Assembly: GCF_008831285.2 (NCBI RefSeq)
Contig: NC_045150.1
Location: 11,639,868 to 11,703,867, forward strand
Length of the DNA: 64,000 nt
Source of the DNA: Nymphaea colorata
Lineage: Eukaryota; Streptophyta; Magnoliopsida; Nymphaeales; Nymphaeaceae
Reading direction: 5' to 3'
Shown here piece after piece: positions 6,092 through 58,578 of this stretch; position 1 is the stretch's first letter; each line of letters starts with the position of its first letter. The position numbers and the translations under genes are program-made. Below the pieces are notes generated by a model. It was not told the DNA's origin, did not search any database, and was given only the letters and a program-made list of their open reading frames with translations.

Positions 6092-6253
6092 AAGGTCTGG
6101 CTGGTTCTACCAAGGAGAATGTTTGAACAGACTTGAAATTTCCTGGTTGGTTTTCTCCTATACTCATTCTAACATTCTGCTCCTAACCCCTTCATCTATC
6201 TTGACAACACACTTATATTTTTGTTCGTATATATCTACATTGATAGATATATA

Positions 6254-7240
6254 ATGGATATTCTCTCACAATCCAATATGTCCTCCAACTTCTTGCCACA
6301 CCTTATTTCTGAAAAACTGAACCACTCCAACTATCTTACATGGAAAAGGCAGATCACTCCTTTCATAAGGAGTCAAGATCTGTACGGACATCTTGATGCC
6401 TGCATTCCAATCCCACCACAGTTCATTCAACAAGATGTTAAGAATGAGAAAGGAGAGACAATTTCCACTCAAGAAATTTGTAACCCTCAATTTATAACAT
6501 GGATGAAACGAGATCAAAGTCTTGTTGCTTATATCACATCAACGCTCTCTCAAGAAATGTTGATTTCTCTTTCTGATGACTGTACAGCAGGACAGTTATG
6601 GATCAGTCTTGCTGAAACATATTCTCAAATTTCAAAGGCACGTACTGTACATTTGAAGAAAGAATTTCAAAATCTTAACAAAGGGTCAATGTCGATTATA
6701 GAATACTTGGGATGTCTTAAAGGGATAGCTGATCAGTTGGGAGTTGCTGGATATGTTGTTTCCGACAAAGAAAAAGTCCAGCAGACTCTTAGTGGCCTTG
6801 GACCAGATTTTTATGCCTTCACTACTGCTCTTGAAGTTTTACCTATCTTGCCCACCTTCAAAGAACTTCAGGGCAAGCTGCTTCAACATGAAATGAATAT
6901 AAAACAACTGATGGGAGGAACAAACCAAGGTAATGCTCACCATGTTTTAGTTATGGAAGCTGCTGCAGGTCATAGAAAAGGAAATGGGGCTCATCAAGGC
7001 ATAAATCATGGGCATGATGAACAAACTGGCAAAGGTATTCTTCCAACACCAAGTATTACAAGAAGATTTCAAACTAATACCACAAAAAAGGTGTCGACAT
7101 GTTTCCAATGTAACAAGAAGGGTCACATCAAAGCAAATTGCTGGTTCAATCCACAAAATAGAGGCAATAAACCTAAAGCCAATGCACAACAAATACTTAT
7201 GACTGCCCTCTTCAAGATGAGACTGCCCTCTCCAAGATGA
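6254..7240 (+). CDS. Copia-1 Gag
   Basis: Open frame of about 328 residues from ATG 6254; the frame stays open further upstream to 6221. The N-terminal part has the copia Gag signature (KLNHSNYLTWKRQ), a central UBN2-like helical region follows, and a CCHC zinc knuckle (CFQCNKKGHIKANC, near 7100-7144) lies close to the C-terminus. Gag packages element RNA in cytoplasmic particles. The frame ends at a short tandem duplication (ctgccctcttcaagatga / ctgccctctccaagatga, 7204-7239) whose second copy supplies the stop; protease follows in another frame. Intact gag beside broken pol would allow particles but no replication without help. Confidence 0.9.
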   Translation: MDILSQSNMSSNFLPHLISEKLNHSNYLTWKRQITPFIRSQDLYGHLDACIPIPPQFIQQDVKNEKGETISTQEICNPQFITWMKRDQSLVAYITSTLSQEMLISLSDDCTAGQLWISLAETYSQISKARTVHLKKEFQNLNKGSMSIIEYLGCLKGIADQLGVAGYVVSDKEKVQQTLSGLGPDFYAFTTALEVLPILPTFKELQGKLLQHEMNIKQLMGGTNQGNAHHVLVMEAAAGHRKGNGAHQGINHGHDEQTGKGILPTPSITRRFQTNTTKKVSTCFQCNKKGHIKANCWFNPQNRGNKPKANAQQILMTALFKMRLPSPR

Positions 7241-10200
7241 CAGTGAAACAAAATGATCAAGGCGAATGGTATTTGGATTCAGGCGCTGCTACTCATGTAA
7301 CTGGAAATGCTGGTAAGTTACATGACCTTCTTCCTTATTCTGGTAAAAGTAATATAGTTACAGGTGACGGAGGTTTTCATCCTATCACACATATTAGAAA
7401 TGCACAAATTTCTCTTCCAACATCACATTTCCACTATCTTTGTCAAATATTGCCCTTGCTCCAAATATCAAAAAGAATATTATTTCCATTTCTAAACTTG
7501 TAGATGATACAAACTCATCTGTTGAATTTACTCCTTCTGTGTATGTCAAGGATCTAACGAAGAAAACATTCGCTGAAGGGGAACACCAAGGAAATATGTA
7601 TGTTTTCAAGGAAAATCCTTATCTCTTCTAGTCCTCTTCAAGTCCAGCTCAATTGACCTGTTTTCCTTCCAAACCTTCACAAATTCCAAGTTCTAGCTGT
7701 CTCCAATCAGACATCAGTAAGTCAAATTTATGTTATGGCATGGTCGTATGGGACATTGTAGTCGTGGGTTTTTGGAAAAACTTGCATCAGATAATCTCAT
7801 TCCAAAATCCAGTCTATCTTTTGATTCCTATGACAAAAAATGTTGTAGTTGTGAACTATATAAGAGTCATATACTTCCTTTTCATAATATCAATAAAAGA
7901 GCTTGTAAACCTTCTGAGATTGTCTATTCTGATGTATGGGGTCAGCTCCCATTGATTCTTTATGTGGCTCTCGCTATTATGTTTTCTTTATAGATTCTTA
8001 TTCTCGATATAATTGGATTCACTTCATGAAACAAAAATCAGCAGTGTTTAGTATCTTCCGAGAATTTCATGCCATGATCCAAACACAGTTCTCGTCTAAA
8101 GTTGTGCATTTCCATTGTGATGGTGGGGGAGAATATTCTTCACATGACTTTATTAACTTTTTACGAGAAAATGGGATAACTCGACAGATTTCATGTCCAT
8201 ACACCCCACAACAAAATGGTGTAGTTGAACGAAAACATCGTCACATCGTGGAAAGTGGTATGAGTATGATGCATGATAGTAATATTCCTATTACTCTATG
8301 AACGAAGGCTTTTCACACTGCTATGCATATAATAAATCGTCTGCCCATGACAGTTTTGGATTCAAAATCTCCTTACTTCACTCTTTTTGGTCGAAATCCA
8401 AACTACAATGATTTAAGGCTTTTTGGATGTGTGTGCTATGTTCACATTGACTCGTCATTGAGAAATAAATTTCAAAGCAAAGCAGTGCAGTGCAGGTTCG
8501 TTGGCTATGCAGATGAATAGAAAGGTTTTAGATGTTATGGCCCTATAACCAGACGCATCAAAGTATCGAGAAATGTTGTGTTTGATGAACACAAATTTAA
8601 CCTTTCTACGGAGAATTCTCAAGCCGTGGAATCATATGATCCTTGGGTAAGTGTTGAGTTATTTGCAGGAGGCAGTCTAGAATCACATCCACATGATAAG
8701 ATAGGATCTTCACATATCACACAAACAGAAGGAAACAAAGAACTTGTTCCAGCTATGAAAGAAGGAGAAAACAATGCTTCATGTCGATTTTCAGGACATG
8801 TTTACACTTGTCAGAAAAGAAGGAGAGATGGCAGTCCGACCTCTTCCCACGTTGAAGTCTATGATCAGCCTGTTAGAAGATTGGTACGAGTGCGACACCC
8901 CATTCATAGATGGGTAAGCTAAGATCATCTCTCCTTAGATTTTCAGCTCTTTATATCTCAAGTTATAAAACGAGATGAACCTACTTCTTTTGAGGAAGCA
9001 TCCAAGTCGTCGCATTCGATCAAGGCAATGAATGAAGAAATAGATGCATTGCATGAATGTGGGACATGGAAAGTTGTTCCTAGACCCAAAGAAAAGAATG
9101 TAGTAGGTTCGAAATGGATTTATAAAATTAAATATAAACCTGATGGCAGTGCAGAAAGATACAAGGCAAGATTGGTGGCACGAGGCTTCACACAATAATA
9201 TGGAGAAGATTATGATGAAACATTCAACCCTGTGATCAAAATGGGAACAATCCATGTGATTATATCATTGGCAGTTGAACATGGGTGGAGACTACATCAA
9301 ATGGACGTGAAGAATGTTTTCTTCATGGTGATTTGAGAGAGAAAGTATATATGGAACAACCTCCAGGATATACGAAAGGAGATCCTCATGCATGGGTTTG
9401 TAAACTAAGAAAATCTATTTATGGACTCAAATAGGCCTCATGCTCGTGGTTTGACAGTTTCTCCTGCAAGATTCAAGAATGTGGTTTTTGGAGATGTCCT
9501 TTAGATCACTCTCTTTTCATCTATCGAAAGGAAAAGATATTTACTTTACTTCTTATATATGTTGATGATATTGTTATCACAGGCAATTCAGAAAAACACA
9601 TAGAAGAAGTTAAAGTTTTGATTATGCAAAACTTCAAAATGAAAGAGCTTGGTGATTTACGATTCTTTCTTAGAGTGGAGATTGATAGGCACAATGATCG
9701 TCTCACATTGACGCAACAGAAATACACGATGGATCTATTGAAAAGATAGGTATGTCTGATTGTAAGTCTGTTGGAACTCCTAGTGTTTTAAATCAAAGAC
9801 TAAGTACTCAGGATGGAGAATTATATGAAGATCCTACATAATATTGAAGTATTGTTGGGGCACTTCAATATCTTACATTCACTAGACCAGATATTATATA
9901 TATTGTGAATCAAGTATCTCAATTTATGCATGCACCTAGAGATACTCACATGGATGTTGTCAAAAGAATATTAAGATATCTAAAATGGACAACAGGAGAT
10001 GGCTTAGTTTATGGTAAGAGTGAAAATATAACTGCTGGACATCAACTTGTAACATTCACAGATGCATATTGGGCTGGAGATCCCGATCAAAGAAAGTGCA
10101 TTTCTGGTTTTTGTATTTTCATTGGACGTAATCTTGTGTCTTGGAGTTGTCGAAGGAAAAAGACAGTGGCAAGATCTAGCACTGAAGCAGAATACAGATG

Positions 10201-10473
10201 CATGGCTGCAGGTGCTGCTAAAGTCACATGGATTAAACATTCGCTAGAAGGCATTGGAGAAAAGATTAAAACGTCAATGTTAATGTGCGATAATGAAAGC
10301 GCTATTAGCATTGCTTTTAATCCCATACAGCATGGTCGAACAAAGCACATTGAGATTGATTAACATTTTATTAGACAAAAGGTGGAAAACAAGGAGATTC
10401 AGCCTATTTATGTTCATACAAATGAACAAGTTGCAGACTTATTTACAAAAGGACTAACGAAGCAACGATTCTG
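7237..10473 (+). pseudogene. Copia-1 Pol, broken (protease-integrase-RT-RNase H)
   Basis: Domains follow in Ty1/copia order. Protease WYLDSGAATHVTGN is at 7267-7308 and a gag-pre-integrase motif LWHGRMGH at 7733. The integrase core has HCDGGGEY and PQQNGVVERKH up to 8301. Reverse transcriptase starts near 8990 (SKWIYKIKYKPDGSAERYKARLVARG) with the catalytic YVDD at 9559-9570. RNase H (TDAYWAGD, RSSTEAEYR, HGRTKHIEID) ends with FTKGLTK and a stop at 10473. It is disrupted by frameshifts near 7430, 7960 and 9315 and by in-frame stops, including those after SNIPITL (8299), YADE (8518), RGFTQ (9196), GLKQ-equivalent (9431) and HIEID (10361). It cannot yield a full polyprotein. Confidence 0.93.
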
Positions 10474-10881: not shown

Positions 10882-13800
10882 TCAAGCTGGAGCATAGATA
10901 TCAATCATGCTCAGCTTGTTATACCCTCTCAAGAAATCTCCAATGGAAAGCGGTTTAGTAAACATATCAGTTGCTTGATCTTCAGAAGAAACGTGGATCG
11001 TGCTAATGACTCCTTCTTGGACCAAGTCTCCAACATAATGGCAATCCACTTCAATGTGTTTCGTCCTCTCATGAAAGACAGGGTTATTTGCAATGTAGGT
11101 AGCGGCTCTATTATCACAATACATCTTCATAGGAAGTTTCACTGAAATTCCCAGTTCTACAAGCACTGATTTGACCCATGACATTTCAGCCGCCGTTTGA
11201 GCCATAATAGCTCTATATTCAGACTCGGCACTCGATCTAGCAACCACATTCTGTTTCTTGCTCCTCCAAGAAATAAGATTTCCACCAATAAAGACGCAAA
11301 AACTTGTAGTAGATCTTCTATCATTTGTTGACCCTGCATAATCAGCATCACTATATGCTTCTATGTCCACACATTCTCCTTTTTTGAACCATAACCCCTT
11401 TCCCGGGGCTGATTTCAAGTATTTTATCACCATTAAAGTAGCCTCCCAATGAACTTTTCGAGGTTTCTCCATGAATTAACGAAGCTTATTTACAGCAAAG
11501 CTGATGTCTGGATGAGTGATGGTCAAATATAAAAGTTTCCCTATCAGAGATTTGTAAGAACGAGAGTCAAAAGCCTCTGATTCATCATCATGCATATGAA
11601 TCCGAGGATTCATGGGAAGTGTAGCAGGTTTGGCTCCCAATAACCATGTTTTCTGCAGAAGATCAAGAGCATATTTCCTTTAAGACATCACAATCCCTTT
11701 ACTACTATGAGCCACTTCAATACCAAGGAAATGTCGAAGTTGACCAAGATCTTTTGTGACAAAGTGTTTTTGTAAGAACTCCTTTATCTGAGCTATCTCT
11801 TGAATATTTTCTCCAGTGAGAACAATATCATCAACATATACAATCAATATCACTATACCAGAAGTTCCTCGCTTGATAAACAACGAGTGATCAAGATGAG
11901 ATCTTCGAAATCCACATTTAGAGACAATCTCACTTAGCTTATGAAACCATGCACGGGGACTTTGTTTAAGTCCATAGATAGCCTTTTTGAGTGGTTGTTG
12001 CATATAGTCAAGTTTGCATACCTTAGAACACTCCTCCTGTCGTTCAAAACCTTGTTGCATATAGACTATTTCAGAGAGATCACCATATAGAAATGCATTT
12101 TTCACATTAAGCTGAAAAAGAGGCCAATCCTGCTGAACTGCGAGAGATACAATTAGGCGAATAGTACCTAACTGTGCCACAGGCAAGAACATCTCGAAGA
12201 AGTCCACCCCATAAGTCTGTGTATATCCTTTAACCACAAGACGAGCTTTGAATCGCTCTACAGACCCATCAGAATGATATTTGATGGTGAATACCCATTT
12301 GGAGCCAACAACATCACAATTCAACGGTAGGTCCACCAAGTCCCAAGTCTCCCTAGAAAGAAGAGCATCCATTTCTTCCTGCATAGCATGCTTCCATCGT
12401 GCATCTGATATGGCTTGGTGGTGAGAGGTTGGAATAGTATGACTAGCCATAGCTCGATCAAACTACACCAAACTTGTGCTCAAATGGTCCATAGAAATTG
12501 AGTTAGAAATCGGATGCCATGTGCACTGTCACTGGCCCTTGCGAATAGCAATAGGTAGATCATTTGCAGAATAGTCATCATTTCTTTCTCAGTCAGTCTT
12601 ATCATTAGAACTTACCTCATGAGAAGACATTGGTGGGCGGTTAGGAGAGGGACCTTGACGTCGGGTATAGACTATTGGAGGATCAAAAAAATGATCACCT
12701 GATAATGGTGGAGAGGGCGGGATCGACTCAAGTGATATTGGGGGAATAAGAAGATGAACAAATATTGGAAGCTCAGACACAGTGGTACTTGGAGCAGAAA
12801 AATAAGGATGAGACTCAAAGAATGTCACATCTGCAGTGACGATCTCTTTCTTGATATGGGGATCAAAACATCGATAGTCTTTTTTATTGGCAGAATATCC
12901 AATGAACACATATTTGACAGCTTGGGCAGCAAGTTTGTTTTTGTTTGGACCCAAGATGTGTGCAAAACAAGTGCATCCAAATACTTTAGGAGGTATATGA
13001 AATAATGGTCGATCTAGATATAGTATTTGAATGGGGATGCATTCTTGGATGGCAGACGAGGGCAATCTGTTGGTGAGATAACATGCGGTAAGAATAGCAT
13101 CACCCCAAAAATAGGCAGGCATATGAGTATGCAACATGAGGGTATGGGCCACATTTAGAAGTTGTCGATGTTTGCGTTCAGCAACACCATTTTGTTGGGA
13201 TGTGTGAGGACATGTATATTGTGGTCGGATCCCATGATTGGCATAAAATTGGAGTAGAACTGAAGATTTAAATTCAAGAGCATTATCAGTGTGAATATTT
13301 TTGACAACAACACCAAACTGAGTTTTTATTTTATTGACAAATTTTTGAAGAATATAGATGACTTCAGACTTGTCCTGTAACAAAAATACACAACTGACTT
13401 TAGTAAAATCATCAACCAAAACAAGGTAATACCAGAAACGTGAACGACAAGAAACACAACTTGGACCCCAAATATCAACATGCAGAAGATCAAAGGGACT
13501 TAGACTCGATGGACTCTGACTTGAAGGGAAACTACTACGTGTATGCTTGCCTAACTGGCATGCATCACATAAGAATGACTCTGACATAGGAATATCTAGA
13601 AAAATGCGACGAAGCTTGGACACAGATGGATGACCCAGTCTGAGATGTCACTGCAAAGGAGAAGGGTTTGACATGAAAGAGGATGCAGCAACATCTAAAG
13701 GGACAGAGAGAAAATAGAGTCCCTCCTGTTCATGGCCGCCACCAACCATCTTCCCAGTTTGTAAGTCCTGAAAAGAACATGAACCATGATCAAAAATGAC

Positions 13801-14280
13801 TCTACACTATAAATCTCTAGCCAATTGCTTAACAAATAACATGTTAATATGAAATCGAGGAGCATATATCACATGTGTAATGGTCCGAAAAGGTGTGAGA
13901 TAGATATCACCGCTGCCCAGAATAGGGGACAACTTGCCATCAGCCAACCTGACGTGTTGTGGTGTAGTGAACCTGGTAAACGATAAAAACATCTGTGGCT
14001 AATTACAACAACGTTTGGATGCTCCTGAGTCAATCATCCATATTATACCTGGGTCACTGGTAGGGGCACCAACAGAGAGAACCGAGTCTATAACGGTTGT
14101 GCTGGTTGAGGCAAGAGTAGACCTCCTAGCAAGAACCAGATCATATTCTTCCTTGTTTAAGTTGAGATAATACGATGGAGGTATAGGAGAACAGGTAGGA
14201 GACTCAACCATAGCATCTGTAGACTGTGACGAAGTTGCAGTAGATGAAGAAGACCCTTTTGACCTACTACCGTCAGCCAT
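10882..14280 (-). pseudogene. Copia-2 Pol, broken, with truncated N-terminus
   Basis: The frame starts at an ATG at 14280 (MADGSRSKGSSSS), followed within about 90 residues by the protease-like IWMIDSGASKRCCN; no capsid region or CCHC motif lies between. Then come gag-pre-integrase and integrase (HVDIWGPS, HTDNALEF, SQQNGVAERKHR; 12589-13623). RT follows (SKWVFTIKYHSDGSVERFKARL, YVDDIVLTG; 11680-12450), and RNase H (YSDADYAGS, RSSAESEYRA, HERTKHIEVD; 10882-11472). Stops occur after CCN (13998), RDL (13806), before HLRLGHPS, after VMS (11680) and before FMEK (11473), with more between integrase and RT. The protease lacks the usual DHM after DSGA. It is not functional in cis. Confidence 0.92.
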
Positions 14281-15141
14281 AAAAAAAATTGCACTCGAAC
14301 ACGCAGACCACAACCAAATGATGTGCAGCAGGTTGAACACAAACACAAAAATAGCAGACTTAGCCTGTGGGAATCCACCAAGCACCACATGACTAGACAG
14401 ATCTGAACGTCCAAGAACTTCTTCCACGGCAACAAAGGTCAGATCTGATGGCTGGAACTTCTTCACCCAACGACAAAAGACTGCTGCTACTCGATTAGCA
14501 GCAGTTAACACCTCACAAAGCCTCACTTTACTGATTTCACATTCACGATTTGCAGATATTTCTCCTCAAGTCAAACTGCATCTTCAACCAGCAACATGAC
14601 TCTACCCACAACAACTTCTCACGTCACATTGTACCCACAACCAGCAGATTAACTCTGCCCCACATGATCTTATGCAGCGACAACAAAAGGGTAGATCTGA
14701 TATATCTCGTCACAAATCGTCTTCCATGGCAGAAAAAAAATCAGATCTCTTTAGGGCAGATCTGATACATAACGGCATAGGTTTTCTTCCATGGCAGCAG
14801 AAAATTAGATTTGATAACCAAATCTGAGCGGCATAGATATTCTTCCACAGCAACAGAAACTTAGATCTGATACATCCTGATCAGATCCACCATCTTCTTC
14901 CACGGCAGCAACTTCATCAACATTTCTCTGTATCTTCCACGGCAACAGCAACACAAGGGTGCTGATCACATTTCTACATGTTAAAGGTGATTAGCTCCTT
15001 TCCACCAAACAATCAACTTGCTTGTTTTGTAAACAGCAGGAACCCTAGGCGTGAAACCCTAGACTGGAGGAAGAGAAGAGAAATGAGATAAGGAGGGAAC
15101 CCTAGGCGTGAAACCCTAGATCGCATAGCCCTAGGTCCATT
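14281..15141 (-). other. Copia-2 leader region
   Basis: Non-coding 5' leader between primer site and pol. It repeats the motif gcagaTCTGAT / cttccatggcagcag many times (14690-14900), probably an expanded short repeat. Gag would normally begin here but is not present. Confidence 0.7.
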
Positions 15142-19779: not shown

Positions 19780-20253
19780 TTAGGGTCCGTTTGTTTGCAA
19801 GGAAGAATTTAACATGGTAAATTTACCACGGTAAATTTTTCTAGAAAAAAATACAAGATGAAATTTAACCTTCTTCCGATTTGAGGTCATGTTTGATTGC
19901 AGGGAAGTTTTTTGTAGGGTAAAATTAACTGTGTTTGATGCACAGGGTAAAATGAAGGAGAGACTTTTTAGGTGACCATTGGAAGATGACGTTTTAATGG
20001 AGCACTTCGTCACCAAAATTCTGGCCAGCCAATGACCATCCGACGTTCACCCCCAAATCCATGCGGCGTTCTCCACCATGGCCATGGCTGCAAGAGATCA
20101 ACGGCCTCCCTTATTCCTTATTTCTCTTCTCTCTCGCTCAATCCCTCTCCAACCTTCTCTTTAACCTCTTTATTTCCCCACTTCTTCTTCTTCGATCACC
20201 ACATTTTTCGCCCTAGAAATCCACTCTCTCACACACAATGCTGTAACATTTAC

Positions 20254-20611
20254 AACGGCAGAAGTGTCCATGTGGCTGACATCAGCGGTAACTCCAGGGG
20301 AAGTGATGACATCGTAAAGATGGAGAAGGGACACAAGGGGGTTCATCTTCAATAGCAAGGAGAGAGGTTGGCCGATTCCACCAGAGCGGAGGATTGCCAC
20401 CTTGAAACCCGGAGCACCACCATTTGCTCTGCACTCCTCTCTCCTCAGCGAGCTCCATCCTCCCCTCCCCTTTCCCAACAAACAAAACACCATTAAACAA
20501 AGAATTCGATCGATTCCACACGATGAGATCGCCCACCTGGAGGCTTGGAGGATTAAGGTGGCCTGAAATTTTCGCTATGCGTTGAAGGGCCTCTTTGCTC
20601 TGCTGCTGCAT
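20254..20611 (-). pseudogene. Captured fragment of glyoxysomal malate dehydrogenase
   Basis: Minus strand. Exon 1 runs from ATG 20611 to 20537 (25 residues, ending [15 protein letters not shown]), the peroxisome-targeting presequence type of plant glyoxysomal malate dehydrogenase. A gtgggc donor follows. Exon 2 ends at 20254 with a gtaaat donor; it carries [15 protein letters not shown], then [25 protein letters not shown] and [19 protein letters not shown], the start of the NAD-binding domain. Family members read GAAGGIG here; this copy reads RSGGIG, one residue short, which disrupts the dinucleotide-binding loop. Retained introns show capture from genomic DNA, not from mRNA. The rest of the enzyme (substrate and catalytic residues) is absent. 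It lies wholly inside the Harbinger-like element. Confidence 0.88.
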
Positions 20612-20624
20612 CTTCACCTTCCTC

Positions 20625-20905
20625 GTCCTTTCCCCTCTGCTTCTACCCCTTCTTCTTCTTCTTCTTCTCATCCTTCTTCTACCCCTTCTTCTTCTTCTTC
20701 TCATCCTTCCCCCTTTGCTTCTACCCCTTCCCCATCTACTTCTACCCCTTCTTCTTCTTCTTCTCGTCCTTCCCCCTTTGCTTCTACCCCTTCCCCATCT
20801 ACTTCTACCCCTTCTTCTTCTTCTTCTTCTTCTTCTTCTTCTTCTCGTCCTTCCTCTACCCCTTCTTCTTCTTCTTCTTCTTGTTTTTCTCCCTCTGCTT
20901 CTCCC
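20625..20905. repeat. TCT-rich low-complexity tract
   Basis: Runs of (TCT)n with ctacccct and ttcccc interruptions. Open frames over it (Arg-rich on one strand, Ser/Pro- or Leu-rich on the other) are composition artefacts. Confidence 0.9.
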
Positions 20906-21133
20906 TTTCCCCTCTGCTTCTACCCCTTCCCCCTCTGCTTCTACCCCTTCCCCCTCTGTGTCGTCCGGTCGGGAGCTGTCGAGCGGGTGAACTTTCACCC
21001 GCTCGTTTTGACGCGAAACGGGTGAAAGTTCACCCCGTTCGATTGCAAGGAATACGGGCAGGTGAAATTTCACCCACCCGTACAGTTTTCCCCCTCCCCT
21101 CTCGTTTTATCTCTGCAATCAAACGCAGCCTTA

Positions 21134-39088: not shown

Positions 39089-39417
39089 TGTTGAAATGGG
39101 AGAGAGGAGGAAGACGAAGAATTGAAACACAGATTTTACGTGGTTCGGTTCATAGACCTACATCCACGAAGAACACCAGAGCAGCAGCTCTTTGCTTTCC
39201 TATATTTTCTTTCTCTCTATTTTTTCTTTGATTTACAAGGGCATATATAATATCTGATCAATATGAACGTTTGATGAACTTTACATACAAGAATAAAGAT
39301 TATTGAGGAAACTAGCGAGAATGGTAATAATCCTTTCAACGTTCAATGGGCTTCAAAAGGCAAGATTGAGAGGAGCCGTTGAGTATGCTGCGCTGGCTGA
39401 AACGATTACTTTCAACA
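39089..39417 (-). repeat. Copia-3 3' LTR
   Basis: tgttgaaatggg to ctttcaaca. The gag-pol stop codon lies within its first bases on the minus strand. Confidence 0.97.
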
Positions 39418-42400
39418 CTCCCCTTCAAGTGGGGCGTAGAGATTCAAACAACCCCACTTGCTTTTAATATCGTCAAATTGCTTTGTAGGAAGTCCCTTAG
39501 TAAATCCATCGGCCAGCTGCTCTGTGCTTCTAGTATATGGAGTTTCAATCTCTCCTTTTTGGACCTTTTCACGTACATAATGACAATCAATTTCTATATG
39601 TTTGGTGCGTTCGTGAAAAACTGAATTTGCTGCTATATGAATTGCAGCTTGATTGTCACAGTGCATTGGAATGGGAGACTTGATAACAAATCCAAGTTCT
39701 TGGATGAGTGATTTTATCCAAATGAGCTCGCTTGAGGTAGTCGCCATTGCCCTGTATTCAGCCTCAGCACTGGATCTAGAAACAGTGTGTTGTTTTTTGC
39801 TTTTCCAAGAAACTAGGTTATCACCAACATACACACAATAACCTGTCATCGATCTTCTATCTGAAGCACCAGTCCAGTCTGCATCTGAATAACCTTGTAT
39901 ATTAACATGCTCATTCACTTTGTACCACAAACCTTGTCCTGGAGTCTTCTTCAAGTATCTGAGAATTCTTTCCACAGCTTTGACATGAACTGCTTTAGGC
40001 GAATGCATATGTTCACTTACCAGACTGACGGCATAATTGATGTCAGGTCGTGTGACCGTAAGATAGATTAATTTACCCACAAGTCTTTGATAGCTTGTCA
40101 CATTTTCAATAGGTTCATCCTTGGTATTGTCAAGTTTAGGGTAGACTTCTATGGGCGTATCTGCTGGCCTGATACTTGTTTTCCTTGTTTCTTTAAGTAA
40201 ATCAAGTATGTACTTCCGTTGGTTTAGAAATATACCTTTCTTGGATCTAGCAACTTCGATTCCCAAAAAGTACTTTAGTCTCCCCAAGTCTTTGATTTCA
40301 AACGTATTGTGAAGATACCACTTTGTGTGATCCATCTCTTGTTCATCGTTGCCTGTAATTATTATGTCATCCACATAAATCAATACAACAACAATTTTAT
40401 CGTCTGATCTCTTGATAAAAACTGAATTATCTGAGTAGCATCTGATGAATTTTTTGTTTTCCAATGCATCACTCAATTTTTGATACCAGGCTATAGGAGA
40501 TTGCTTCAATCCATAAATCGACTTCTTGAGTCTGCAAACAAGTCTTGGAGTGCATTCCATAAGATGGCCTGGTGGCAGGTTCATATATACTTCTTCTTGA
40601 AGGTCGCCTTGTAGAAAAGCATTCTTCACATCTAATTGAAACAAAGGCCATTCAAAATTACAAGCAATTGATAGGAGAATTCTGATGGTAGTCATTTTTG
40701 CAACAGGAGCAAAAGTTTCTTCATAGTCTAACCCTTGTGTTTGAGTATACCCTTTAGCAACCAGGCGTGCCTTGTGGCGTTCAATGGAGCCATCACTCTT
40801 GTACTTGGTTTTGAAAATCCATTTGCACCCAACGGCACGTTTTCCCACTGGAAGAGTTACAAGTTCCCATGTACGATTTTTGTGGAGAGCATCTAGCTCT
40901 TCATGCATGGCTTCAACCCATATTTTTTGGTCTTTGGCTTCTTGGTATGTAGTAGGATCTTTTTGTTTTTCAATGCGACTAAGGAAGGCCACATGGTGTT
41001 TGGGTTGATTGCTATAACTCAAATATTTTTCCAAAGGATGAGAAACAGCGATGTTGGTGACAAAGTCTTTCAAATGTCTAGGTGGCTGAATGTTTCGAGA
41101 AGATCTCCTTAGAGTGGGTTCAAACGGGTGAGATTCTAAAGTTTCCAAGTAAGGTTCAATAGGATCTATAGCTCCACTTTCATTGCTTTGATCTGCTTGA
41201 GGCTCAAAAGAGACTTCTGTACTGTTAGGATCAGTTTCAAGGTTTTCATCGGTTTCTCTTCCTTCAAGGTCACTACGATGATGGGTTATGGTGATATCAA
41301 AATCATTGTATGATAGACTGTTGGGTGTGACCATGATGTCGTGCTTGGAACTATCCTCCCCTTGCCTTGCATCGTGAGAGAAATAAGACCTTTTTTCATC
41401 AAAAACTACATCGCGAGAGATATGGATCTGCTTGGCGGTAACATCATAACACCTGAACCCCTTTTTTGTCGATGAGTAGCCCAAGAAAATGCATTTTTTT
41501 GCTCTGTGGCTGAGTTTGTCTGCAGCTTTACTCTTGACATAGACAGTGCATCCAAAAATTCTCATGTGGTCCACTTTAAATTTCCTTTTCATGAGGGCTT
41601 CCAAAGGAGTTTTTCTAGCAAGAATTCTTGTGGGTGTGCGATTGATAGTATAACATGCTATCAAAACTGCATCACTCCAAAAATGTTTAGGAACATTCAT
41701 ATCAAATAGTAAAGACCTAGTCATTTCTAGAAGATGATGATTTTTTCGTTCTGCCACCCCATTTTGTTGGGGTGTATCTACACAGGTGAATTGTTGGTCC
41801 ATCCCGCTCTCCTTTTTGAATTGTTCAAAGAATTGGTTTTTATATTCCGTACCGTTGTCGGATCTAAGACATTTTATACGAGTTGCAAATTGAGTTTCAA
41901 CCATTTTGTAAAATTCTAGAAATTTTGAAAAAACTTCATCTTTGGTTTTTAATAGATAAATCCAAGTGGTTTTTGAAAAATCATCAATGAAAGTGAGATA
42001 ATACCGAAAATTTGAGTAAGATTTCACGGGGGCCGGCCCCCATACATCGGTATGAACAAGATCAAAAGGAAACATAGCATTGTTTAAGGATTCATGGAAT
42101 GGAAGTCTAGACATTTTAGCATACTTGCAAGTTTCACAAACATGAGAGTCATAATTCAATTTTGGTAACAAAACATTCAAAACACGATGTGATGGGTGAC
42201 CAAGTCTCTGATGCCAAAGTTCACCTTCTCGGTTGATTTGGGCAGTCAAGGCATATTCATTGATTTTCAGCATATATAGCCCGTTTTCGTGAGTTCTCTC
42301 ACCAATCTTCCTCTTCGATATAGGGTCCTGTAAAACAACGTTAGTGGGAGAGAAAATAACTTGACAATTTAAATCTCTAACAATTTTTGAAACGGACAAC

Positions 42401-43659
42401 AAGTTGGTCGAGAGATCTGGCATGTAGAGCACTTTAGATTTAGCACCATTTCTAAGAATATCTAATTCTCCTTCTCCTTGAACATGCATAGAAGAACCAT
42501 TAGCAATAACAACAGATTTTTTTCTAGTCATAGAAGAATAATTACTAAGGTTATGGCAGTTCATAGACATATGATCACTAGCTCCAGAATCGACAATCCA
42601 ATAATCAGATTTGAGTGAAGTAAAAGCGTTACCAGTAGCACTTGCTGAAGCTGCCGTACTGTTTTGATGTTCTTTATCATCGTGATTCTTGACATTTTTC
42701 AGCAGTTCGTTTATTTTTTCCAGCAGCTGAGGAAGATCTGAAGTATCAAGAGTTTTGGTTGCAACATTGGCTACGGTAGTGGTGCTCCCCTTCTCTCTTT
42801 TTTCTGTCCTCATGGTGGTGGGTTTTCCGTGGAGGAACCAACACCTTTCCTTGGTATGACCCTCCTTTTTGCAATGAGAACAAAATCGTTTTGGACGATT
42901 CTTCCATTTATGTTCACTGCTTTTATGGGCTCCATAGAAGGCAACCTGTTCTATATTGCTAGAGTTCTCTTTAAAAGAATCAGAATTTTGAAACATAACC
43001 TTTTTTCTGGATTCGTCTCTCATAAGAATTGAGCAAACAGTGCTAAGAGAAGGAAGCTCCAAGGACATTAAAATTTGGCTTCGGATGGGTTCATATTCTG
43101 GGCCAAGAGTCGCAAGAAGCTCAAAAATTTTTTGTTGTTCACGCAACTTTTCTCGAGATCTAAGTGTAGCAGACATATCCATAAGATAGTCAAGTTCATC
43201 CCACATACCTTGGATGTCGCATAGCAGGTCACCAAAATTTTTGTTGTGCTTTTTGAGATCCCGAATACCTTGAGAGAGTTGATACATATGAGCAATGTCA
43301 TTTTTTTCACTATAGAGGTCTTTTGCCTTTCTCCAAATTTGATGAGCAGTTTCTGCGAAATAGAATCCTCGTGCGACTTTAGGCTCCATAGAGTTAATTA
43401 ACCAGGACATTATGAGATGATTGGTGGATCGCCATTCTCTATAAGTCGGATCTGTTTCAGCAGGTCTTGGAAGATCTTCGGTCACGAAATCCAGCTTGTT
43501 TCTGCCACTTAAATAGAGCATCGCCGATTTGGACCAAGCCAAATAGTTGCTGCCATTTAGAAGTACAGAAGTAATCTTGTTTGCAGGGCTTGGTTGCTCC
43601 TGCACGATAATTTTTTCTACCACTCTGGTGGTGGTTCCGACGCTTGAATCTTCTGTCAT
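39412..43659 (-). CDS. Copia-3 Gag-Pol polyprotein
   Basis: 1415 residues without interruption. Gag: LNGSNYLAWSKSAMLYLSG near residue 34, helical UBN2 region to about 230, CCHC knuckle CSHCKKEGHTKERC at about 258-271. Protease: DYWIVDSGASDHM at about 351-363. Gag-pre-integrase: ELWHQRLGHPSHR near 480, then zinc-binding CETCKYAKMS. The integrase core keeps its catalytic D, D and E in HTDVWGP (about 537), LRSDNGTEY (about 595) and QQNGVAERKN (about 635). RT: WIFKTKYKSDGSIERHKARL to about 1165, with YVDDIIITG at about 1093. RNase H: YSDADWTGAS, RSSAEAEYRA, HERTKHIEID. It ends YAPLEGEC with the stop overlapping the LTR by 6 bp. All catalytic residues I can check are present. Gag and Pol share one frame, as in most plant copia elements. 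Confidence 0.97.
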   Translation of the reverse strand: MTEDSSVGTTTRVVEKIIVQEQPSPANKITSVLLNGSNYLAWSKSAMLYLSGRNKLDFVTEDLPRPAETDPTYREWRSTNHLIMSWLINSMEPKVARGFYFAETAHQIWRKAKDLYSEKNDIAHMYQLSQGIRDLKKHNKNFGDLLCDIQGMWDELDYLMDMSATLRSREKLREQQKIFELLATLGPEYEPIRSQILMSLELPSLSTVCSILMRDESRKKVMFQNSDSFKENSSNIEQVAFYGAHKSSEHKWKNRPKRFCSHCKKEGHTKERCWFLHGKPTTMRTEKREKGSTTTVANVATKTLDTSDLPQLLEKINELLKNVKNHDDKEHQNSTAASASATGNAFTSLKSDYWIVDSGASDHMSMNCHNLSNYSSMTRKKSVVIANGSSMHVQGEGELDILRNGAKSKVLYMPDLSTNLLSVSKIVRDLNCQVIFSPTNVVLQDPISKRKIGERTHENGLYMLKINEYALTAQINREGELWHQRLGHPSHRVLNVLLPKLNYDSHVCETCKYAKMSRLPFHESLNNAMFPFDLVHTDVWGPAPVKSYSNFRYYLTFIDDFSKTTWIYLLKTKDEVFSKFLEFYKMVETQFATRIKCLRSDNGTEYKNQFFEQFKKESGMDQQFTCVDTPQQNGVAERKNHHLLEMTRSLLFDMNVPKHFWSDAVLIACYTINRTPTRILARKTPLEALMKRKFKVDHMRIFGCTVYVKSKAADKLSHRAKKCIFLGYSSTKKGFRCYDVTAKQIHISRDVVFDEKRSYFSHDARQGEDSSKHDIMVTPNSLSYNDFDITITHHRSDLEGRETDENLETDPNSTEVSFEPQADQSNESGAIDPIEPYLETLESHPFEPTLRRSSRNIQPPRHLKDFVTNIAVSHPLEKYLSYSNQPKHHVAFLSRIEKQKDPTTYQEAKDQKIWVEAMHEELDALHKNRTWELVTLPVGKRAVGCKWIFKTKYKSDGSIERHKARLVAKGYTQTQGLDYEETFAPVAKMTTIRILLSIACNFEWPLFQLDVKNAFLQGDLQEEVYMNLPPGHLMECTPRLVCRLKKSIYGLKQSPIAWYQKLSDALENKKFIRCYSDNSVFIKRSDDKIVVVLIYVDDIIITGNDEQEMDHTKWYLHNTFEIKDLGRLKYFLGIEVARSKKGIFLNQRKYILDLLKETRKTSIRPADTPIEVYPKLDNTKDEPIENVTSYQRLVGKLIYLTVTRPDINYAVSLVSEHMHSPKAVHVKAVERILRYLKKTPGQGLWYKVNEHVNIQGYSDADWTGASDRRSMTGYCVYVGDNLVSWKSKKQHTVSRSSAEAEYRAMATTSSELIWIKSLIQELGFVIKSPIPMHCDNQAAIHIAANSVFHERTKHIEIDCHYVREKVQKGEIETPYTRSTEQLADGFTKGLPTKQFDDIKSKWGCLNLYAPLEGEC
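39418..39432 (-). other. Copia-3 polypurine tract
   Basis: Minus-strand acttgaaggggag directly before the 3' LTR. Confidence 0.9.
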
Positions 43660-49801: not shown

Positions 49802-52800
49802 ATGTTGCAGAGGGCAGCCAGCAACGCCTACTCATGGTGGTGGGCGAGCCACATAAGGACCAAGCAGTCAAATTGGCTGGAGCAGAACCTTCAAGGTAAT
49901 CCTCACTCTTACGCTGGCCATTCTTTCTCGTGCTTTTGCTCCGATTTCTTTGGTCATTTTCATCTACTAGTGAGATGAACGATGCAAGCTGACGAGAAAT
50001 TGTATGTATGTCTTCTAGACCAATCAAATCAAACTCTGCCAATCGAGTTTCACATGATTGTTTCATCCTCCGCTTGTAATAGAGAGAGAATATTATTAAG
50101 TCCTATTGGATGCAATATTGTAATAGAAAAGAAGCACGATGCACGTCCCATGCTAGATCAGAGCATGTTTAAATGTGTATTTTGCGCAGATTAAGCCCTT
50201 AAAGATGAAAGATTAGAATACAGGCCAACCATTTTCTTTTGTTTCTGGCTTTCTTGAACAAAATATTGCATTTCTGTTGAAGTTATTTATAGATTATTGT
50301 TCAATTAAATGGAAACGAAAGCGGAATGGTATTCATATCTCTAGAACATGTTTATAATGCATACCTATCACTTGCCACAGAGCTTCTGCATTTTATGTTA
50401 GTAATCAAGAAAGAAATTTAAAAAAAAAAAAAAAAAAAAAAGCTCGATTGAATGAGAATGTGCACTGAATATGCAGATATGGAGACAAACCTGCAAACCA
50501 TGCTTCAACTCATTGAACAAGACGGTGATACTTTTGCCCAGAGAGCAGAGATGTACTATAAAAAGAGGCCAGAGTTAATTCACGTTGTGCAAGAGTTCTA
50601 CAAAGGGTACAGAGCAGTAGCAGAAAGATATGATCACATCTCTGGTGATCTTCATAATGCCCGCAGTACCATTGCAACGGTTTTTCCAGAGCAAGTGCCC
50701 ACCATTGCCAATGATGTAGATCCTCCTAAAGAAGAAATTGAGCAAGTGACTGATATCACTAAAAATGTCAGTGAGGCACCAAAGAATCCACCCCCACCAC
50801 CACCGCCTTCAGTATCAGGAAAATCAGAATCAAATATTTCAAAAAAGTCCAAAAGAAGTGATTCAATTGATTCCCATCCAAAGATGGATAAAGAAACGGC
50901 ACAGAAAGAGATAGATAAGCATCAGAAAGAGATACTGGTCTTACAGACAGAGAAAGAAGTCTTCAAGAGCTCATATGAAGCTGGGTTAGCAAAATACTGG
51001 GAGGTAGAGAACCAAATCTTGGAGCTGCAGGCTTTGGTCTGCTGCTTGCAGGAAGACCATGGTCTTGGTAGTAGCATCCAAGGTGAAGAAGAGCAGACCT
51101 TAATGGCAGTCACAGCTCTGAGATCATGTGAACAGATGCTTGGCAGTTTGCAAGAAGAGCAAAAGAAGTCAATGGCAGAAGCCAAGGTGGCATCTGAAAA
51201 AATTAAGAAAATGGAGGAAAAATTGAAGCATTTCAAGGATGAGTTCCTCAAGCACCAGCCAAAGAATAACGAATTTGGTGATGAACAACCTAAAGTTCTA
51301 CATCCAGCATCCAAGGCATTGGAACCAGACAATGACAAACTTACTGATGAACAACCAAGAGCACTATATCCAGTAATGAGTGCATTGGAAGAAGAAGTGT
51401 GCAATCTGAAGAAGGAAAAAAATGAATATCAAGAAGCATGCCAGAAAATTGTGAAACATCTGGAGTTAGAAGTTAATGATTCTCAGAGCTTTCCTGAACT
51501 GAGCCATCTGATTGATGAGCTTGTAGGCAAAGTGGTAAATCTGGAAGGAGAAGTTTCTTCTCAGAATGTTCAAATACTGAGACTGAAAACCGAAACAGAC
51601 TCTCTGCATGAGCACTTCCAAAGCCTTCAAGAAGGCAACTTGTTGCTCAAGGATGATGCCAAGACAATGAATAACAGAATAAATGAGCTAGAATTGGAAC
51701 TTCAGGGTATTCAAGATCTTAATCTTCGCATCGAGGAACAGAAAGCACAGCTTCAGAACCACCTAGCAGAAGCATGCTGCAATCTTGATGATCTTGCAGG
51801 AAAAATGAAAAGCCAACAGAATCATAATGAAGATGAAAACTCTGACTTGGTTCGGTCTGTTGCTGAAGATGAATTTCAAGAAGTCAAAATTGCAAATGAA
51901 GCTCCTACAGCTGAAACTGACAATGGAAAAGATGTGGACAAGAAAAAGGAAGCAGAAGCTAGCAAGCTGCCAAAGGAAACTGAAAAGCCTAGCTGTGAAT
52001 TTGGTGGAGAAGTTAAACAGTGTGAAGAAATCGAAGAATCTTATTCTGGATATGAGACAGAAGCCAAATCTATTGATGAGACTGAAGAATCCAGTTCTGA
52101 GTTTGATCCCGAGGTTAAATGTGGGTCCGAACAAAAATCAGATGTCGAAAGCTTCAATTTTGGCAATGAATTTCAGAACTTGTGCTTAGAATTAGTCAGT
52201 TCACAAGCTTGGAAAAGATTCTTAGAGGGGATTGAAGGCAAGGAGAAGACATTGTTGACGGAGTATACATCTGTTCTTTGCAAGTACAATGAAACAAAGC
52301 AAAAACTTTCTCAAGTAGAGAAACAGAACCAGGATCTTTCAGAAAAAATATTAAAGGTCAGGTCGCTGGAGTCAACAACTGCACGTAAAGATGCAGAAAT
52401 TGAATCACTAAAACAGAAACTGAGCATCCTGCAAACGGATTATGAACATCCTGACATCAAATCTACCCAAGGCAACCGTCTAGCAGGAAGCAAATCCCAT
52501 AAGCTGAACAGCTCGAGGATGCTAGCAGCTATTGGTTGTTTAGATTATCAAATTAAGGAAAACTCTGAAGAACAAAGCACTGAAAGTGCTAGAATCCAGG
52601 ATGCACCAGCCACAGATAGAGAGACCAAAATCATGCTCGATGAGGAACCACGTCCTGTTTCTGCGATGGAAGAAAAATTCCGGTGGGAAATAGATTCGCT
52701 GCTCGAAGAGAACTTAGATTTTTGGATAAGATTCAGTGCCTCCTTCCATCAGATACAGAAATATCAGACTGCAATTCAGGAGGCACAGGTGGAGTTATTG

Positions 52801-53403
52801 AAACTAAGAAAGGAGAAAAATGTAGCTGAGGACAATCACAGTTCTTCAACCCACAGTGGTAGTACCAATCAGAATCAAAGCATAAGATCGAGTGTGGAAG
52901 CAATTCAAAAGCAGTTGAGGGAATTACAAGGCGAACTGCTGGTATGGATAGAACAGAATGCACTGCTCAAGGATGAGCTAAAGCACCGATCCTCATCATT
53001 GTGCAGCATACTGGAAGAAATATCTCAAGTATCAAAGATAGGGTGCAAGCAAGCCGGAGATCTAACAGATTATCAGGCCGCAAAATTTCAAGGTGAGGTT
53101 CTAAATATGCAACAAGAAAACAAGAAAGTTTCAGATGAACTACAAGCTGGACTGGATCATGTTAGAGCGCTCCAGTTGGAAATTGAGAAGAACCTGCTGA
53201 AATTGAAGGAGAACTTTGGGCTATCAGGAAGCAAGCACCACCACAATAATCATATTCAATACATGCGGCAGACTCTCAGTCGAACAAGAATTCCATTGCG
53301 AACATTCATTTTCGGAAAGCCAAAAAAGCCTTCCATATTTTCTTGCATGAATCCAGCACTGCAGAAACAATATAGTGACATGAGAGCAGGCAGAAAAATA
53401 TAG
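49802..53403 (+). CDS. NET2: NETWORKED 2-type actin-binding protein
   Basis: Two exons: 49802-49895 and 50477-53403, 3021 nt, 1006 residues. The intron has a gtaat donor and a tgcag acceptor; the split codon gives D32. Exon 1 begins MLQRAASNAYSWWWASHIRT, the hallmark start of NET2 (KIP1-like) proteins. The NAB actin-binding domain spans about residues 10-84 and ends EFYKGYRAVAERYD. STIATVFPEQVP follows near residue 95, then a proline run (PPPPPPP, about 136-142). Long coiled coils cover about 165-460 and 600-690. A conserved C-terminal region has FWIRFSASFHQIQKYQTAIQ and LLVWIEQNALLKDEL. The tail is basic (RIPLRTFIFGKPKKPS). The length matches NET2 (about 950-1000) rather than the longer NET1 or shorter NET3/4 groups. 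NET proteins link F-actin to membranes; NET2 members act mainly in pollen tubes. No disruption is seen. The ATG at 50452 is intronic and not the start. Confidence 0.95.
50421..50440. repeat. A run in NET2 intron
   Basis: About 20 consecutive A just upstream of the exon 2 acceptor. Confidence 0.95.

Positions 53404-55150: not shown

Positions 55151-58578
<3,428 letters not shown>

Follow-up and report, generated by a model that had tools for sequence, protein, structure and literature searches.

How a piece of a malate dehydrogenase (MDH) gene came to lie between the inverted ends of a short transposon is the question raised by positions 19783-21130 of the window (that is, the whole stretch of 64,000 nucleotides analysed; contig C13:11639868-11703867). 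Pack-TYPE elements shuffle plant exons, and how they take them up is disputed, with fusion, abortive gap repair and fork stalling with template switching as the competing proposals. The best explanation found here, at a probability of about 0.88, is a non-autonomous Pack-PIF/Harbinger element that captured the 5' ends of two genes stepwise. The evidence was drawn from the window (Table 1) and from searches of the genome (407.8 Mb in 783 contigs).

Table 1. Features of the element in window coordinates
Feature	Position	Strand	Remark
Left target-site duplication TTA	19780..19782	.	
Left terminal inverted repeat	19783..19799	+	14 of 17 bases identical to right repeat
Family 5' core	19783..20000	+	Common to sister elements without the captured pieces
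Subterminal TIR-like repeat	19885..19901 (element ~103-119)	+	
Captured piece 1, from a PAM2-domain gene: 5'UTR, start codon at 20083-20085 and first codons	20002..20239	-	
Second exon of 124-aa frame	20170..20469	-	Open provided that intron 1 is removed as inferred for parent
Filler of 11 bases between captured pieces	20240..20250	.	Matches neither parent
MDH exon 2	20251..20469	-	Ends 3 bases beyond inferred exon 2/intron 2 border
Chimeric open frame, 263 aa, unspliced	20282..21073	-	Mechanical ORF only; spans 3' core, array and exon 1 of MDH
MDH intron 1	20470..20536	-	67 bases; 105 in parent
Coding part of MDH exon 1, including start codon and the PTS2-like RIAKISGHL	20537..20611	-	
MDH 5'UTR	20612..20644	-	Array border shares AGAAGCAG with parent
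CTT-rich low-complexity array (GAA-rich on minus strand)	20645..20957	.	Similar arrays in other copies
Family 3' core with strong hairpin	20958..21130	+	Arms 20985-21001 and 21019-21035
Right terminal inverted repeat	21114..21130	-	
Right target-site duplication TTA	21131..21133	.	

The assignment of 19783-21130 to a non-autonomous PIF/Harbinger-type element flanked by TTA on both sides is supported by its ends and by its family. Both the TTA duplications and the matching inverted ends on which a preliminary description, made from the letters alone, had based the transposon are present, the two ends being identical at 15 of 20 bases. The end match alone is not overwhelming: within the window, 5 of the 73,572 pairs of the same TWA trinucleotide spaced 0.5-2 kb apart reach at least 15 of 20 (the other four are AT-rich), and the ends were therefore rejected as stand-alone proof; the observation is settled by family copies with identical target-site duplications (TSDs). 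Between its ends the element has host gene sequence and lacks a transposase. The 3' core folds strongly as DNA (z=-5.8; 0 of 200 shuffles equally low); miRNA-family matches of its hairpin are sub-threshold and at chance level, and an Rfam scan of the window gave no match at the gathering score.

A genome search with the whole element gave 81 matches, which come from the best 40 of 772 candidates, so that all copy numbers given here are lower bounds. Of 37 further loci taken, one proved to be the CID-like gene treated below and one was the same locus as another in the set; together with the window's own element this makes 36 candidate copies. After removal of the 15 without two placeable ends, an identical 3-bp TSD was found in 18 of the 21 copies placed at both ends (16 with TTA/TAA and 2 with TCA), and an unequal one in three (L048, L055 and L071), which counts against the proposed reading; the terminal inverted repeats matched at 11-17 of 17 bases. 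Two of the copies, L037 and L039, share flanks and thus represent one insertion that was duplicated. Moreover, a combined pattern of terminal inverted repeat (TIR) and TSD (TWAGGNTGCGTTTGATTGCA; at most one mismatch anywhere) matched the genome at 57+55 (112) places, and its reversed control at 0+0. The ends, on which the earlier reading had been staked, are thus common to other insertions.

A profile search of the genome with DDE_Tnp_4 (best 150 scored of 307 candidates) placed one match, C6:19929465-19930031, in a stretch bounded by family ends (19924285 and 19931376, 7.1 kb apart; TAA/TAA). With 331 bases read at each end of this stretch, its ends were 83% identical to the cores of the window element over 162 bases and 75% over 73. 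The Harbinger-type assignment, likewise made beforehand, is thus upheld by the shared ends, the TWA duplications and the family ends around a DDE_Tnp_4 domain. Pack-MULEs are also TIR elements carrying gene fragments, with target duplications longer than 3 bp; they belong to another superfamily, whereas the window's family has 3-bp TWA duplications and Harbinger ends. The core of the family, two ends plus a simple-sequence array, would have been mobilized in trans by a relative that carries transposase, although the C6 transposase copy has one TGA within its DDE_Tnp_4 domain.

The captured MDH piece occupies 20251-20644 on the minus strand; the preliminary description had its location right and its extent (20254-20611) too short, as 33 bases of 5'UTR belong to it. 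A start codon, exon 1, an intron and exon 2, all reported at the outset, were borne out by a Pfam match (Ldh_1_N, E=7e-8) and by alignment to a parental gene on contig C4 (C4:13218152-13218583), which covers 5'UTR, exon 1, intron 1 and exon 2. In BLAST, the piece and the C4 gene are identical at 374 of 435 positions with 44 gap positions (17 mismatches in 391), and in a MAFFT alignment they differ by 22 mismatches in 391 (K2P 0.059). Since intron 1 is retained and aligns to the parent, shortened as it is, capture took place at the DNA level, as had been claimed. Pfam names the piece no further than Ldh_1_N; we take the enzyme to be peroxisomal from RIAKISGHL, a PTS2-like motif. Three equal-scoring Ldh_1_N loci on C6 (17306791, 17427062 and 17444085), two of them 17 kb apart, are either recent duplicates or assembly copies.

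Searching the genome with MDH gave five matches, of which one is the window site, two are MDH loci and two are short matches to the array, and among the examined family copies MDH is present in the window copy only. A partial MDH duplicate (L031) was seen at C13:17713967-17714224; over 247 sites it agrees with the C4 gene at 98.8%, differing at 3. The part of the match in exon 1 is missing from it, and an 8-bp insertion shifts its frame. It was rejected as the source, the element agreeing with C4 at all three diagnostic sites and being without the 8-bp insertion.

A single MDH fragment had been reported, and a second captured piece beside it (piece 1 in Table 1) had been missed. This piece is identical to C10:13111204-13111444 at 230 of 241 aligned positions, and the protein of the C10 parent has a PAM2 motif (Pfam, E=8.5e-6). 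No RRM exceeded the Pfam cut-off in the gene, and none was found in another stretch examined, so that the name 'CID-like', which we presume to be apt, leans on PAM2. Thirteen examined copies with family ends carry the CID-like piece. In 12 of the 13 its alignment stops at an identical base (2096/2097), and in L042 at 2091; two bases (TA) of the C10 parent are missing in every copy spanning that place, and the window copy has the longest piece. Three pairs sharing flanks (L033/L035, L037/L039 and L043/L044) reduce the 13 copies to ten independent sites. The CID-like piece was thus mobilized with the element, whereas MDH is single-copy; the parental genes (C4 and C10) lie elsewhere in the same genome. 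As the CID-like piece is shared and MDH is not, the CID-like piece was captured first and capture was stepwise. The 5' end of the CID-like gene was acquired first by the core, which then reached ten or more sites; one copy later took up the MDH 5' end, between the CID-like piece and the array. Both pieces were copied as DNA. The existence of the frameshifted C13 duplicate lends something to a different account, in which the MDH and CID-like pieces are ordinary dispersed duplicates of the host and the transposon ends are accidental or inserted around them; that duplicate is not the source, however, and the CID-like piece stands at the same place in 13 copies with family ends, a shared breakpoint that largely refutes the account and leaves it scarcely credible.

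Sister elements have in common the 5' core and some stretches of the 3' core, and their interiors differ, with cargo from PP1, PMI1-like, GH28 and one unnamed gene. L071 carries the 5'UTR, start codon region, exon 1 and part of intron 1 of PP1 (STPPase_N, E=3e-19), with a 4-base loss after the start codon and two further jumps, and L056 carries the 5'UTR, start codon and exon 1 of a C11 gene without Pfam match. L046 has a PMI1-like piece, 96% identical to C6 (L074), whose parent product bears a PMI1_PMIR1-2_C domain; the jumps of the piece relative to that parent fall within an exon as well as over an intron, at short stretches of identity, and are therefore read as two internal deletions. A first impression of intron loss ('spliced' pieces) in L046 and L071 was dropped after alignment to the parents. 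The interiors of L065 and L068 were searched and gave no clear host gene source.

Two side observations concern these elements. Another part of L046 corresponds to a tandem array at C3:5280587-5282773, with copies ~389 bases apart. In L032 (2035-2225), two unrelated foreign pieces are found at the spot of MDH in the window copy: 65 bases of a C11 open frame, with Glyco_hydro_28 upstream of those bases, and 85 bases of unknown kind that resemble C6 and C14.

The borders of the pieces bear on how they were acquired. In the window copy, L032 and L056, the extra piece adjoins the low-complexity array. At the border of MDH and array, element and parent share an 8-base identity (AGAAGCAG), and in 200,000 random pairings of array with sequence upstream of MDH, an identity of at least 8 was reached in 0.0485% of draws. 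The other MDH border, on the CID-like side, has the 11-base filler and no microhomology, which speaks against the proposed course of events. We consider template switching the most likely mechanism and a somewhat better than even choice; it would have taken place at the array and hairpin, in the course of repair or when replication stalled, and transposition would have followed. In animal Pack-TIRs, FoSTeST invokes template switching with microhomology, stalling at repetitive transposon sequence, and then transposition (PMC8277862). The array, hairpin and border facts fit template switching, so that the mechanism proposed here would come close to FoSTeST, which in the parts of that account compared is described in metazoans, its authors leaving plants open (PMC8277862).

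Fusion of neighbouring insertions, in which two family elements flank a gene end and their outer ends then move as one (the Pack-TYPE model), is the route published for plants, and room is left for it by subterminal TIR-like repeats within the element ends (element positions ~103-119 and ~1254-1265). The model is supported for maize Pack-PIF in the portion of that study compared (PMC8903248). These internal repeats lie in the cores, however, and no TIR-like sequence (at most 2 mismatches of 12) is found beside the MDH or CID-like pieces; the parents are on other contigs (C4 and C10), and the pieces in L046 and L071 jump internally relative to their parents. Fusion is thus an unlikely origin for the two pieces, with perhaps one chance in a handful.

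A further pattern concerns orientation. In six of six identified gene pieces, coding sense opposes the direction from 5' core to 3' core (two-sided binomial 0.031, hand-computed and post hoc on six pieces), and 5'UTR plus start codon are present in four of the six. Capture might be directed rather than random, with the simple-sequence array of the family acting as bait at which template switches start, a suggestion that we hold only tentatively and think doubtful. Resemblance of such an array to the purine-/pyrimidine-rich tracts of plant 5'UTRs would explain the 5' ends, the one orientation and the presence of different pieces in different copies along the inner edge of the array. Over the first 40 bases from the 5' edge, purines make up 85% in MDH, 87.5% in PP1 and 90% in the L056 gene, which puts these edges at ranks 24, 16 and 6, respectively, of 280 in the 300 bases that precede the start codons. 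The CID-like edge, in this sample of four, is at 65% not purine-rich (rank 116 of 280) and counts against the bait; 5'UTRs are often purine-rich anyway, which weakens it further, and in L056 and L071 the border is rich in pyrimidines on its array side, so that a single strand rule fails to fit all.

Whether the pieces are kept for a function, as small RNAs or antisense transcripts acting on MDH or the CID-like gene or as a short PTS2-bearing chimeric peptide, was weighed from the letters of the element. With intron 1 spliced as inferred, the element retains intact splice sites and an intact frame of 124 aa, which begins at the MDH start codon and meets its stop within the CID-like 5'UTR. Relative to the parent this frame has 7 changes in 72 synonymous sites and 8 in 222 nonsynonymous sites (Fisher p=0.06), a comparison that is unpolarized and takes in changes in the constrained parent; purifying selection on the frame is thus not established. 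The NAD loop is damaged as first described, reading RSGGIG for GAAGGIG with one codon lost and two changed, and the piece is single-copy. Retention for function therefore seems improbable, and the pieces are presumably without one.

Gene capture by PIF/Harbinger elements, which had been held to be less known, does occur here and, in the parts of the literature compared, had already been described in grapevine, maize and rice (PMC2528002, PMC8903248). As presented there, Zm-Pack-PIF cluster #18 of maize has a first piece of 163 bp in 72 elements and a second of 58 bp in 4 (PMC8903248). It resembles the window's family as a non-autonomous PIF with TTA/TAA duplications and stepwise capture; such capture being already published for maize, the window element is one more of its kind. 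Unlike those of cluster #18, so far as the published portion compared extends, the pieces of the window's family consist of 5' gene ends that include start codons, and one of them has an intron; they border a simple-sequence array in an apparent common orientation, and sister subfamilies carry other genes. Grapevine Pifvine-3 likewise comprises PIF elements with host exons and introns in several copies, yet its foreign region, in the part of the report compared, lies in transposase-bearing elements, while the gene-carrying elements examined here are short and non-autonomous (PMC2528002). The shared orientation and array-edge location, noted post hoc on six pieces, are absent from the published descriptions as far as compared, and a literature search gave no paper on this element family among the matches listed. 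Few PIF/Harbinger captures are dissected in the portions of the literature compared, and the element should be most useful for testing the mechanism of capture. In one genome the family forms an ordered series of cores without pieces, copies with one piece and copies in which a second has joined it in the same place, the parents being known, which makes the capture step testable base by base.

Elsewhere in the window, an open polyprotein frame of 1415 aa at 39412-43659 (minus strand) is, judged by its motifs, presumably Copia-type, and we also take frames at 6221-10363 (plus) and 10882-14526 (minus) to be broken Copia-like ones. Ribosomal protein L3 pieces in two frames (55151-56013, minus strand; Pfam match on 55513-56013) are possibly an intron-bearing gene or a pseudogene. 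A NET2A-type protein is encoded at 50452-53403 on the plus strand (KIP1, NET2A and NET2A_C; Pfam).
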